In this document: piece after piece, positions 9,048 through 26,497 of the stretch
Layout: each line of letters opens with the position of its first letter
Numbering within the stretch: the first letter of the stretch is position 1
Assembly: GCA_902634135.1 (NCBI GenBank)
Contig: CACPJB010000001.1
Span: 164,106 to 198,370 of the forward strand
Length of the DNA stretch: 34,265 nucleotides
Reading direction: 5' to 3'
DNA from: an uncultured Marinoscillum sp.
GTDB lineage: Bacteria; Bacteroidota; Bacteroidia; Cytophagales; MED-G16
The notes under the pieces: model-generated
Seen by the model: only the letters and a program-made list of their open reading frames with translations
Database searches by the model: none
What the model was told of the DNA's origin: nothing
Position numbers and translations under genes: made by a program

Positions 9048-9122
9048 CGGGGTGTAGCGTAGCCCGGTTATCGCGCCTCGTTTGGGACGAGGAGGTCGCA
9101 GGTTCGAATCCTGCCACCCCGA
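9048..9122 (+). tRNA. tRNA-Pro (anticodon UGG)
   Basis: A 75-nt cloverleaf. The acceptor stem pairs CGGGGTG (9048-9054) with CACCCCG (9115-9121), with discriminator A at 9122. The anticodon stem is CCTCG/CGAGG and the loop TTTGGGA carries anticodon TGG. The T arm is GCAGG-TTCGAAT-CCTGC. The 3' CCA is not encoded. Confidence 0.96.
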
Positions 9123-9208: not shown

Positions 9209-11509
9209 ATGAGAATACTTATATTATTATTTATAACATTTATTTCACATGCTCAACAGAAAGCTAACTTCAAGGCAGCTGAAAAATTCAGTCAAAGTAA
9301 TTTATCTAAAATGCTAAAAAGTAAATCTGTGTCACCTCAATGGTTTGAGGAGAGCGATAGGTTTTGGTATTCTTATACTACTACCTCAGGAAAAAACTTT
9401 TACATAGTAGATCCATCAAAAAGAACAAAGACAAAACTTTTTGATAACCTTGAATTCTCTGCGAAACTTAGTGATCTCACAAGAAGGCCTGTAAATCATA
9501 ATGAGTTAGATTTAGATGAACTTGAACTTGAGAAAGATAATAGAACACTAACTTTTCAAATAGATAGTATACAGTATAGATATGACATATATAATAAGTC
9601 ACTTGTAATGGGAGATAGTATTGCTGAAGAAGAAAAAAATGATTGGGCAACATACGCGCCAGATTCTTCATACATGTTGTTCGCAAAAAACCATAACCTT
9701 TTTCTTATGGAAGTTGGTGATGAAGATAGCGTTGAAATTCAATTGACAGAAGATGGTGAGAAGTGGTTCTCATACCAGTGGAGGCATGGGGATACAACTT
9801 CTGATAAGAGAATGAGAGCTAGAGCTACATGGTTTAAAGATTCACAAAAATTATATTCAAATAGATCTGATGCTAGAAAAGTAGACGAACTTTTTGTTAT
9901 AAATACTTTAAAAGATCCGCGTCCTGAACTAGAGGTGTATAAGTATGCAATGCCTGGAGAGGTAAATGTTCCTCAGGAGGTATTAGAAATATTTGATGTT
10001 GAGAGTAGATCTAGAATAACCGTAGATGAGGATAAGTATATTGATCAGACAATCTCTCTTCATCTTACAAAAGATAAATCTGAAAGACTTTATATGGTAA
10101 GATTGAATAGAACGAGTGATACATTAGACGTTTCTTATATCAATACTTCTGATGGATCTATAAAATTTTTATTTGAGGAAATAAACCATCCTTATCATAA
10201 TTGGAATTATAGACAGCTTGCGGTTTTAAATGAAGGTAATGAGCTCATATATTGGTCAGAAAAAAATGGATGGGGCCAGCTCTATCTTTATGATGGAAAT
10301 ACTGGAAGGTTAAAAAACAAGATAACAAATGGCGGCTACTTTATAACTGGTAGAATACAAGATATTGATACGCTTAACAGGAAAGTATACTATCAAGCTT
10401 TTGGTAAAGAAAGAGATGTCGATCCATATTATAGCATGGTTTACAGCTCTAATTTTGATGGGTCTGGTATGAAACTTCTTACTAAAGAAAAATATAATCA
10501 CAGAGTTAATTTCTCAGAGTCAAGTAAATATTTTGTTGATAACTACTCTGCAGTTGATAAAGTGCCTACCTCTGTTCTTAGGGATGTATCTGGTAATATA
10601 ATCATGAGGTTAGAGGAGGCTGATTTAACCCTTTTATATCATGCTGGTTGGAAAATGCCTGAAAGATTTAAGGTTAAGGCTGATGATGGAATTACTGACC
10701 TTTATGGGGTAATGTATAAGCCTTTTGATTTTGATCCAGAGAAGAAGTATCCTATAATTTCTTATGTATACCCAGGTCCTCAGGTAGAATCATTTACAAA
10801 TGATTTTACAATTTCAGGAAGATATAATACCGCGATTGCACAACTTGGATTTATTGTTGTGAGTATGGGTCATAGAGGAGGGAGTCCCATGAGGTCTAAG
10901 TATTACCATACTTTTGGTTACCAGAATTTAAGAGACTATGCCCTTGCAGATGATAAGAGGTCATTGGAGCAGCTTGCTGAGAGACATTCTTGGATAGACC
11001 TTGATAATGTTGGAATATTTGGTCACTCTGGAGGTGGTTTTATGTCTACTGCTGCTTTGCTTACGTATCCTGATTTTTATGATGTTGCTTGTTCGTCTGC
11101 CGGTAATCATGATAATAACATATACAATAAGTGGTGGAGTGAGACGCATAATGGTGTTGAGGCTGTATATAAGAAAAAGAAAGATGATGACGGTAATGAG
11201 ATAGAAGAATTGACATGGAATGCGAAGATTAAAACTAATCAGTCTCTGGCAAAGAACTTGAAGGGACATCTTCTCCTAACGCATGGTAACATTGACAATA
11301 ATGTTCATCCTACGAATTCTCTTCGTGTTGCAGATGAGCTTATTAAGGCAGGGAAGAGGTTTGATATGATGATTTTTCCTGGAAAAAGACATGGATACGG
11401 AAGTTTCAGGTCTTATTATGAAAAGATGATGTGGTATTATTTTGCTGAGCATCTTCTTGGCGACTACAGGAATAACGTTGATATAAGTTTACCTAATTCT
11501 GGGAAATAA
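9209..11509 (+). CDS. Secreted S9 family serine peptidase, DPP IV-like
   Basis: This 766-residue peptidase has a short signal peptide (cleavage near SHA|QQ). A DPP IV-type propeller covers roughly 60-500. The alpha/beta-hydrolase domain follows, with the triad Ser607 in GHSGGG, Asp696 in GNIDNNVHP and His728 in KRHGYG. Length and triad spacing fit S9 dipeptidyl-peptidases. I do not see the DPP IV double-Glu motif (WxYEEE type) that holds the peptide N-terminus, so Xaa-Pro dipeptide release is not assured. A periplasmic or surface peptide-degrading role is likely. The gap to tRNA-Pro is 86 bp of AT-rich sequence with no clear promoter. It reads toward umuD, 79 bp away. Confidence 0.92.
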   Translation: MRILILLFITFISHAQQKANFKAAEKFSQSNLSKMLKSKSVSPQWFEESDRFWYSYTTTSGKNFYIVDPSKRTKTKLFDNLEFSAKLSDLTRRPVNHNELDLDELELEKDNRTLTFQIDSIQYRYDIYNKSLVMGDSIAEEEKNDWATYAPDSSYMLFAKNHNLFLMEVGDEDSVEIQLTEDGEKWFSYQWRHGDTTSDKRMRARATWFKDSQKLYSNRSDARKVDELFVINTLKDPRPELEVYKYAMPGEVNVPQEVLEIFDVESRSRITVDEDKYIDQTISLHLTKDKSERLYMVRLNRTSDTLDVSYINTSDGSIKFLFEEINHPYHNWNYRQLAVLNEGNELIYWSEKNGWGQLYLYDGNTGRLKNKITNGGYFITGRIQDIDTLNRKVYYQAFGKERDVDPYYSMVYSSNFDGSGMKLLTKEKYNHRVNFSESSKYFVDNYSAVDKVPTSVLRDVSGNIIMRLEEADLTLLYHAGWKMPERFKVKADDGITDLYGVMYKPFDFDPEKKYPIISYVYPGPQVESFTNDFTISGRYNTAIAQLGFIVVSMGHRGGSPMRSKYYHTFGYQNLRDYALADDKRSLEQLAERHSWIDLDNVGIFGHSGGGFMSTAALLTYPDFYDVACSSAGNHDNNIYNKWWSETHNGVEAVYKKKKDDDGNEIEELTWNAKIKTNQSLAKNLKGHLLLTHGNIDNNVHPTNSLRVADELIKAGKRFDMMIFPGKRHGYGSFRSYYEKMMWYYFAEHLLGDYRNNVDISLPNSGK

Positions 11510-11512
11510 TTT

Positions 11513-11551
11513 AATACTAAAATAATTAGTATTTACTAAAATAATTAGTAA
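11513..11551 (+). promoter_or_regulatory. Two tandem 17-bp inverted repeats upstream of umuDC, candidate operator
   Basis: Two identical units TACTAA-AATAA-TTAGTA lie at 11515-11531 and 11534-11550, 19 bp apart. Flanking bases lengthen the arms to 8 bp in the first copy and 7 bp in the second. The units sit between the upstream stop (11509) and the umuD start (11589). They contain almost no G or C and lack a T tract, so a terminator is unlikely. A dimeric repressor site for SOS-type control of umuDC is inferred. Confidence 0.5.
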
Positions 11552-11588
11552 TTTTAACTTCTTTTGAAAATTTCAAATTGAGTTAGAT

Positions 11589-12017
11589 ATGAAAACTACA
11601 AAACCTTCCTTAGAGAAGACAGATATCCTTAGCGTTGTACCTTTCTATTCACAGGCTGTGCCTGCTGGTTTTCCATCTCCAGCTGACGATTTTTTAGATT
11701 TTGACCTTTCCCTTGACAAGAAACTTATCAAGCACCCAAGTGCTACATTTTTTGTTCGTGCAAGTGGTACCTCTATGATAAATGCCAAAATTTTCGACGG
11801 GAGTATTCTTCTAGTAGATAGGGCAGAGAAAATTAATAATGGAGATATTGTTCTTGCTGTTCTTGATGGAGACTTTACCGTGAAAAGGTATAGGAAAGTT
11901 GACGGTTCTGTATTTCTATATCCTGAGAATAAGTCTATGAGACCAATTAAAATTTTTGATGGCTCCGAGTCATACGTATGGGGTAAAGTCATGTGGTCTT
12001 TTAATAGTGTAGAATGA
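11589..12017 (+). CDS. umuD: UmuD-like S24 peptidase, translesion polymerase subunit
   Basis: This 142-residue protein has the length and layout of UmuD. It is expected to cleave itself after a DNA-damage signal (RecA filament) and then join UmuC as DNA polymerase V. The cleavage bond is probably Ala26-Gly27 in VPAGFPSP. The catalytic dyad is Ser62 (GTSM) and Lys99 (FTVKRY), matching the Ser/Lys spacing of E. coli UmuD. There is no DNA-binding HTH, so it is not LexA. Its last four bases (ATGA) overlap the umuC start, a typical translational-coupling junction. The upstream inverted repeats probably control it. Confidence 0.95.
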
Positions 12018-13264
12018 TAGCTCTTGTAGACTGTAATAATTTTTATGTCTCATGTGAGCGAGTATTTAGGCCACATCTAGAGAATAAGCCCGTTGCTGTA
12101 CTCTCAAATAATGATGGGTGTGTTATAGCTCGATCAAATGAGTCAAAGGCTTTAGGTCTCAAGATGGGAGAGCCAATATTTAAGAAGAGAGAACTTGTAA
12201 GGAAACATAACATACAACTTTTCTCATCGAATTTTGCTTTGTATGGAGATATATCAAAACGTGTTTTTGATATCGTCTCAAGAAACATTCCTGCTTATGA
12301 GATATACTCGATAGATGAGGCATTTTTAGATTTTCGAGGAATAAAAGACCCTTATACTTTTGCTGTTCATCTAAGAAAAAAGGTAAAGAAATGTACGGGA
12401 ATTCCTATCTCTATAGGCATATCATACACAAAGACACTTTCTAAGGTAGCAGGGTATCTTGCCAAAAAATCTCCTGAGGGAGTCTCTTATCTCCACGACA
12501 AGAAACAGATATCAGATATTTTGGGTAGGCTTCCTGTTGATGAGATATGGGGTGTTGGAATGAGGTATGCTATAAAGCTTAAGAAGTATGGAGTACATAC
12601 TGCCAAGAATCTGCTTGAATGCGATGAGACGTGGATCAGGAAGATGATGAATGTAGTAGGTCTTAGGATGGTAAGAGAACTTAAGTGTATGTCACACTTT
12701 AATCTTGAGGAGGGAAGGAGTATGAGGAAGAGTATATGTACCTCGAGATCCTTCTCTGTAGAGGTATCAGATTACACTCAAATGTCTGAGTACATAAGTA
12801 TGTTTGCCTCAAGATGTTCAGAGAAACTGCGTGGTGAGCCAGCATGCGCTAGGTCAATAAGTGTCTTTATGTACACGAATAGATTCAAGCCAAAAGCAAG
12901 GCAATACTCAGGATATTTTTCTATGGACTTCCATACTGCAGCAAGTGATACAATAACTATTACCAAGCTCGCAATAGAGTGTCTAAAAAAAATATATAGA
13001 TCTGGGTATTCATATAAGAAGGCAGGTGTTACACTCTCAGGAATAATTCCAAGAAATCAAGTACAGCTCAGTCTATTTGATTCTGCAGACAGGAAGAAGT
13101 CAGATACTCTTATGCAGACACTGGATAAGATCAATGGAAATATGGGTAGAGATATCCTTAAGCTGAGTTCTTCAGGTATTAATAATAAGTGGAAGATAGG
13201 GAAGGAGAGACTTTCTCCTTGCTACACGACACGGTGGTCGGATATACTTAGCATCAGAGTATGA
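12014..13264 (+). CDS. umuC: UmuC, Y-family DNA polymerase V catalytic subunit
   Basis: This 416-residue protein is full length for UmuC. It copies past damaged bases at low fidelity. Metal-binding residues are Asp6 ([13 protein letters not shown]) and Asp101-Glu102 in SIDEAFLDF. The steric and incoming-nucleotide motif [10 protein letters not shown] is at 32-41, and a helix-hairpin-helix-type thumb region is near 171-195. A C-terminal QLSLF (351-355) is a canonical sliding-clamp-binding motif. It forms an operon with umuD by a 4-bp overlap. Its last 11 bp overlap the 3' end of the converging steroid-reductase-like gene. AGG arginine codons are common here, unlike in the most AT-rich genes of the window, but no mobile-element signs adjoin it. 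Confidence 0.96.
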
Positions 13265-25572: not shown

Positions 25573-26497
25573 TATTTAAAATTTTAATTGAACTAATTTC
25601 ATCTTTTATTAATTGAGTTTTAAGTTCTTCTAATGAATTAAACTTAGATTCATCTCTTATTTTATCAATCAAAATGATTTTTAAAGTTTTTTCATAAAGA
25701 TTGAAATTGATACCAAAGATATGTATTTCCACTCTTCTTTCTTTACCATCAACCGTAGGTCTGATTCCTATATTTAGCATTCCTCCGAAATACTTTTTAT
25801 TTAATAAAATTTTACAAACATAAACTCCATTTCCAGGAATAATTTTTCCATCATTAATTAGAGATAAATTTGCAGTTGGATAACCAATTTTTTTCCCAAT
25901 TCCATCACCTTTTATAACATTACCTGTGATAAAAAAATCATAACCAAGCATATTATTTGCTTTTTTTAGGTTTCCAGTTAGTATTTCTTTTCTTATAGAA
26001 GATGAACTTATTTCAAAATTTTTATTTATTTCCTTCTTTTTTATTTCTTGTATTTTAAAATCAAATTTTTCTTTATTATTTTCTAGATAATGAAAGTTAC
26101 CCTCTCTATTGTGTCCAAAACTGTGATTGAAGCCAATAATTAACTTGTTAATATTTAATTTTTTAATTAAATATTGTTGAATAAATGATTCAGCCTTTAT
26201 TTTGGAAAATTCTTTTGTAAACTCAATCAAATAGATAAAATCTATTCCTTCTTTTTCTAAATAATCCATTTTATCATTCTTACTAAGAAGAAATTCTATA
26301 TTGGAATTTTTATCTAATACTGTTTTTGGATGTGGCCAAAATGTAATTAGAATACTTTTACCTTTTTTTAATTTTGCTTGAGTTACTAATTCTGTTATTA
26401 TTTTCTTATGTCCAAGATGGATTCCATCAAAATATCCAATGGTAGCTATCGAATAACCTTTAATGTTAATTTTTGATGTACTTTTAATAATTTTCAA
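25559..26497 (-). CDS. ribF: Bifunctional riboflavin kinase / FAD synthetase
   Basis: This 312-residue enzyme makes FMN from riboflavin and then FAD. The N-terminal adenylyltransferase domain carries GYFDGIHLGH (HxGH at 27-30), FWPHP, GFNHSFGHNREG and SSSSIR. In the third motif Asn124 replaces a more usual Asp. The C-terminal flavokinase domain carries GDGIGKKIGYPTANL (PTAN at 207-210), GVYVC and NIGIRPT. It is full length. It overlaps both truB (14 bp) and gldC (14 bp), implying coupled translation. Base composition here is among the most AT-rich in the window. Confidence 0.97.
   Translation of the reverse strand: MKIIKSTSKINIKGYSIATIGYFDGIHLGHKKIITELVTQAKLKKGKSILITFWPHPKTVLDKNSNIEFLLSKNDKMDYLEKEGIDFIYLIEFTKEFSKIKAESFIQQYLIKKLNINKLIIGFNHSFGHNREGNFHYLENNKEKFDFKIQEIKKKEINKNFEISSSSIRKEILTGNLKKANNMLGYDFFITGNVIKGDGIGKKIGYPTANLSLINDGKIIPGNGVYVCKILLNKKYFGGMLNIGIRPTVDGKERRVEIHIFGINFNLYEKTLKIILIDKIRDESKFNSLEELKTQLIKDEISSIKILNNEKV

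Follow-up and report, generated by a model that had tools for sequence, protein, structure and literature searches.

A conserved tandem pair of candidate SOS operators ahead of umuDC in an uncultured marine Cytophagales bacterium

Two identical palindromes in the umuDC leader

The window, i.e., the whole stretch of 34,265 nucleotides that we analysed, has a GC content of 32% and belongs to a marine Marinoscillum-like MAG whose assembly (965 kb in 56 contigs) is 55% complete. It encodes the two subunits of a DNA polymerase V, which overlap by 4 bp (Table 1). The umuD product matched NF007621 with 130 bits (cut-off 110) as well as Peptidase_S24, and has the PAG-F cleavage site and the Ser and Lys residues. 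The domain search of this 142-aa protein returned Peptidase_S24 only and no DNA-binding domain. UmuC has the domains IMS, IMS_C, and DUF4113. The gene upstream encodes an S9 peptidase and directly follows a tRNA gene.

The box TACTAA-AATAA-TTAGTA is found twice between the peptidase gene and umuD, in identical 17-bp copies that start 19 bp apart. The pair begins 5 bp past the stop codon of the peptidase gene and ends 38 bp upstream of umuD, and the sequence from 11505 to 11592 reads AATAATTTAA-TACTAAAATAATTAGTA-TT-TACTAAAATAATTAGTA-ATTTTAACTTC...ATG. Once the odd spacer is set aside, the perfect palindrome extends over 21 bp in the first copy and 19 bp in the second. By chance, 0.03 exact matches to the box are expected in the window, and none of 100 dinucleotide shuffles of the window had two. 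A previous sequence-only reading of this DNA had reported the two copies and their spacing in the umuDC leader, and we confirmed both the coordinates and the identity of the downstream genes. It had also pointed to the inverted repeat between the copies (TTAGTA-TT-TACTAA) as allowing alternative pairings or cooperative binding. This repeat is present, but it arises automatically when two such palindromes lie side by side and is thus no independent evidence for alternative pairing.

A scan of the umuDC leader for sigma-70-type promoters gave nothing useful, and no Bacteroidota −33/−7 promoter could be placed there by eye with confidence. Another inverted repeat lies between the second palindrome and the start of umuD. 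It is mostly preserved in the genus and missing from the sister genus; it might form an RNA hairpin close to the start codon, or else be a dyad linked to the promoter.

Table 1. Features of the umuDC locus, in window coordinates.
Feature	Position	Strand	Description
tRNA gene	9048-9122		directly ahead of the S9 peptidase gene
S9 peptidase gene	9209-11509		upstream of the box pair
Operator 1 (candidate)	11513-11533	.	palindrome AATACTAA-AATAA-TTAGTATT; core TACTAA-N5-TTAGTA at 11515-11531
Operator 2 (candidate)	11533-11551	.	palindrome TTACTAA-AATAA-TTAGTAA; core box at 11534-11550
Further inverted repeat	11555-11585		TAACTTCTTTTGAAA / TTTCAAATTGAGTTA
umuD	11589-12017	+	142 aa; S24 protease subunit of DNA polymerase V
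umuC	12014-13264	+	416 aa; Y-family polymerase

Exact boxes precede umuDC, recA, and a regulator gene

We searched for TACTAA-N5-TTAGTA in the organism's own assembly, as the sequence-only reading had proposed, and found three exact copies. Two are those ahead of umuDC, and the third (C1:37216-37232) lies 41 bp upstream of the start of recA. Downstream of this strong box, at a distance of 28 bp, the recA leader has another one that is weaker, TACTACTTATTTTAGCA (L001:1473-1489). The weaker box is conserved among the recA leaders of the genus (L182-L190), being preserved in all eight that we measured (one with an N in the box). The shorter core CTAA-N5-TTAG is found at the same position in all nine recA genes identified in the genus, one of which has an N beside the core. 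The own genome also has 15 boxes with one mismatch. Among the 12 that we inspected, 11 are within ORFs, and the remaining one (window 26384-26400) lies 115-168 bp from two possible starts. The short core is close to background genome-wide, with 46 copies against 40 for a control, and is thus too common alone to define a regulon.

A census of 12 congeneric genomes found 26 exact boxes: nine ahead of umuDC, nine ahead of a regulator gene described below, seven ahead of recA, and one inside an ORF. The reversed control pattern has 12 matches in the same genomes. The sequence-only reading took the pair for a candidate SOS operator, and named random scatter of the motif, or its absence ahead of other damage genes and of umuDC in relatives, as grounds against this proposal. 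We found the opposite of both: 25 of the 26 exact copies precede one of the three operons, two of which encode RecA and a repressor of the RecA-cleavable type, and the pair is conserved ahead of umuDC in relatives. Each of these operons has two boxes, with a fixed spacing that differs between the operons: 28 bp for recA, 39-40 bp for the regulator, and 19 bp for umuDC.

In the two best sister assemblies, 32 of the 37 one-mismatch sites outside the three operons are within ORFs. Among the other five, one is close before tgt-like and sigma-factor-like ORFs, and one lies 263 bp before a small ORF. Since the near-matches outside these operons fall almost entirely within ORFs, these results suggest a minimal SOS regulon of three operons (recA, repressor, and umuDC), as predicted from near-exact boxes, a procedure that weaker operators could escape. 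The one-mismatch box between the tgt-like and sigma-factor-like genes (G007, L117:993-1037) is not among the near-matches of the window's own genome or of G008, and is probably due to chance.

The pair is conserved with umuDC in one family

The UmuC proteins with 80-95% identity to that of the window come from MAGs and single-cell genomes of marine Marinoscillum and Flammeovirgaceae (Cytophagales), and every one of their umuDC leaders has the box pair at exactly 19 bp. This pitch is found in 17 out of 17 entries, which we count as about 10 distinct loci because some named loci and other entries are apparently the same contigs. These loci, in one of which the contig stops ahead of umuD (G066), cover three genera of a single family. 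In an alignment of nine leaders, the half-sites are invariant or nearly so, and the spacers and flanks vary; spacers and downstream leader are unlike between genera. The gene upstream of umuDC is also variable, being either the S9 peptidase or a tRNA-Pro, which indicates that the boxes move together with umuDC rather than with its upstream neighbour. Where tRNA-Pro is the immediate upstream neighbour (L018 and L022), this hints at a rearrangement at a tRNA.

For more distant UmuC relatives, from Bacteroidales, Flavobacteriia, Planctomycetes, and Proteobacteria (L025-L069), the 900 bp upstream contain no exact core box, and a scan of 391 genomes of the order revealed the exact double core at 19-bp pitch before umuDC in this family only. 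In a genome from another family of the order (G322), the locus L107:1494-1893 has a double CTAA-N5-TTAG at 19-bp pitch directly ahead of a 118-aa ORF. This ORF, which matches nothing in Pfam, is a candidate for an uncharacterised damage-inducible gene. A contig of a MAG labelled Gammaproteobacteria bacterium (L024) encodes a UmuC 81% identical to that of the window behind a Cytophagales leader with both boxes; it is probably mis-binned.

A putative repressor with a box in its own leader

The regulator gene mentioned above is found in nine of the 12 genomes of the genus. Its product of 254 aa combines an HTH_3 with a Peptidase_S24 domain, and A107-G108, S145, and K184 are invariant across the alignment of these sister sequences. 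We assign these residues by motif to a putative cleavage site (A107-G108) and a putative Ser/Lys dyad (S145 and K184), which fits RecA-stimulated self-cleavage, as would be expected of such a repressor. An exact box is found in the leader of each of the nine genes, which makes them candidates for autoregulation, and eight of them have a second box with one mismatch, 39-40 bp away and adjoining the start codon. A search of solved structures matched HTH domains only. The regulator was placed in the CTAA-type non-canonical LexA group, with the motif as the sole criterion. We also sampled 24 regulator homologues from the rest of the order, i.e., from further genera and families. The leaders of eight contain the core box, against 0.3 expected from shuffling, and those of the other 16 lack an exact one.

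We did not find the regulator gene in the window's own 55% complete assembly. In relatives, its neighbour is a nitroreductase gene, after which comes thrS (a name that we gave on the basis of the sequence itself and not of a family search). Contig C20 of the own assembly terminates inside the nitroreductase homologue, beside the expected place of the regulator, so that an assembly gap is the likely reason for its absence. We infer that this organism also encodes the repressor.

A known motif and the alternatives to it

The sequence-only reading regarded the SOS operators of Bacteroidota as poorly described and knew of no matching LexA box. This view is not supported, since CTAA-N5-TTAG was published in 2021 as the site of a non-canonical LexA of Bacteroidota, a protein with a CI-type HTH and an S24 protease (PMC8565304). 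Sanchez-Osuna et al. found it ahead of umuDC, recA, dinB, recN, and other Bacteroidota genes, and reported promoters with at least two sites (PMC8565304). In Pontibacter actiniarum, gel shifts (EMSA) showed that binding is lost when either half-site or the spacing is mutated, and RT-qPCR showed induction of the genes by mitomycin C (PMC8565304). The regulator is widespread across Bacteroidota and missing from Bacteroidales (PMC8565304). We therefore regard the motif as already known, and the view that the pair is an ordinary DNA-damage switch of the Bacteroidota LexA counterpart as well supported. The two palindromes are very probably a double operator of this CTAA-type non-canonical LexA.

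The boxes might instead be bound by a different dimeric regulator, such as another XRE protein, a phage repressor, or UmuD itself, as in the UmuDAb of Acinetobacter. The HTH and S24 gene is absent from the own assembly, and the binder of the boxes is putative in this lineage, which leaves some room for this idea. Yet the UmuD of the window has no DNA-binding domain, every genus member with the HTH and S24 gene (nine out of nine) has the box in the leader of that very gene, and the motif is the one shown to be bound by the non-canonical LexA family (PMC8565304). We consider a different regulator improbable. An even smaller probability attaches to the inverted repeats acting as RNA hairpins of the umuD leader, i.e., as an attenuator or stability element, and not as DNA operators. 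The leader does fold into two hairpins and a third (z = −3.95), but any perfect inverted repeat would. Moreover, the same 17-bp box lies at other distances from the starts of recA and the regulator, in otherwise dissimilar leaders, its half-sites are conserved in sequence beyond what pairing alone demands, and no T-rich terminator tail is found at the repeats. The AT-rich composition of the window and the near-background frequency of the short core might suggest chance palindromes in intergenic DNA. Such an origin is next to inconceivable given how few exact matches are expected, a 19-bp pairing fixed in about 10 loci, and the near-exclusive placement of the exact sites of the genus before three operons; conservation already contradicts it.

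Proposed functioning of the double operator

If the pair is the double operator of a non-canonical LexA, one repressor dimer, with its CI-type HTH and S24 protease tail, would bind each TACTAA-N5-TTAGTA box. Dimers at both boxes would repress umuDC and hold off the mutagenic polymerase. Upon DNA damage, RecA filaments would stimulate self-cleavage of the repressor at Ala-Gly; this would free both boxes and turn on umuDC, along with recA and the repressor gene bearing the same box. Repressor binding, cleavage, and induction are taken here by analogy from the published family. A more tentative possibility, on which we would not insist, is that in this streamlined marine lineage the SOS regulon has been reduced to these three operons and that each operon's own box spacing sets the strength and timing of its response through cooperative or side-by-side binding of dimers, in which case the closest pair, that of umuDC, might give the tightest repression.

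The interest of these observations is modest and lies in the seemingly minimal size of the regulon and in the fixed spacing of the pair. They extend the published SOS system of Bacteroidota to marine Cytophagales that are uncultured and have small genomes. There, they offer a compact and testable case for the contraction of the damage response during genome streamlining, and for the restraint of a mutagenic polymerase by two operators set close together.

Comparison with known systems

Classical LexA boxes of other phyla resemble the present ones in being palindromic, often present more than once per promoter, and located ahead of recA, lexA, and umuDC, but they differ in sequence from TACTAA-N5-TTAGTA. 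Canonical LexA has a winged LexA domain, whereas the regulator of this genus has a CI-type helix-turn-helix. We rejected its identification as a canonical LexA because its matches are to HTH_3/HTH_19 and its score with the LexA equivalog is 26.6 bits, far below the cut-off of 110.95. In the UmuDAb/DdrR system of Acinetobacter, a non-LexA protein of the S24 family also represses umuDC through palindromic sites (PMC11332147). However, in UmuDAb the DNA-binding domain is part of a UmuD (PMC11332147), whereas the relatives studied here have a separate HTH and S24 gene. A self-repressing UmuD of this type was rejected because the 142-aa UmuD lacks such a domain at its N-terminus.

The closest system is that of the Bacteroidota non-canonical LexA (PMC8565304), in which the marine Marinoscillum-like lineage does not appear by name. 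The half-sites, the 5-bp spacer, and the targets (umuDC, recA, and the regulator's own gene) are the same, as are the HTH_3 and S24 repressor with Ala-Gly and Ser-Lys and the multiple sites per promoter. The differences concern the details of the sites and the size of the regulon. Here, the half-sites are lengthened to TACTAA/TTAGTA, i.e., by another two matching bases at either end, and a strict 19-bp tandem precedes umuDC. The regulon apparently comprises three operons in this lineage, against about nine on average in the families with large regulons (PMC8565304).
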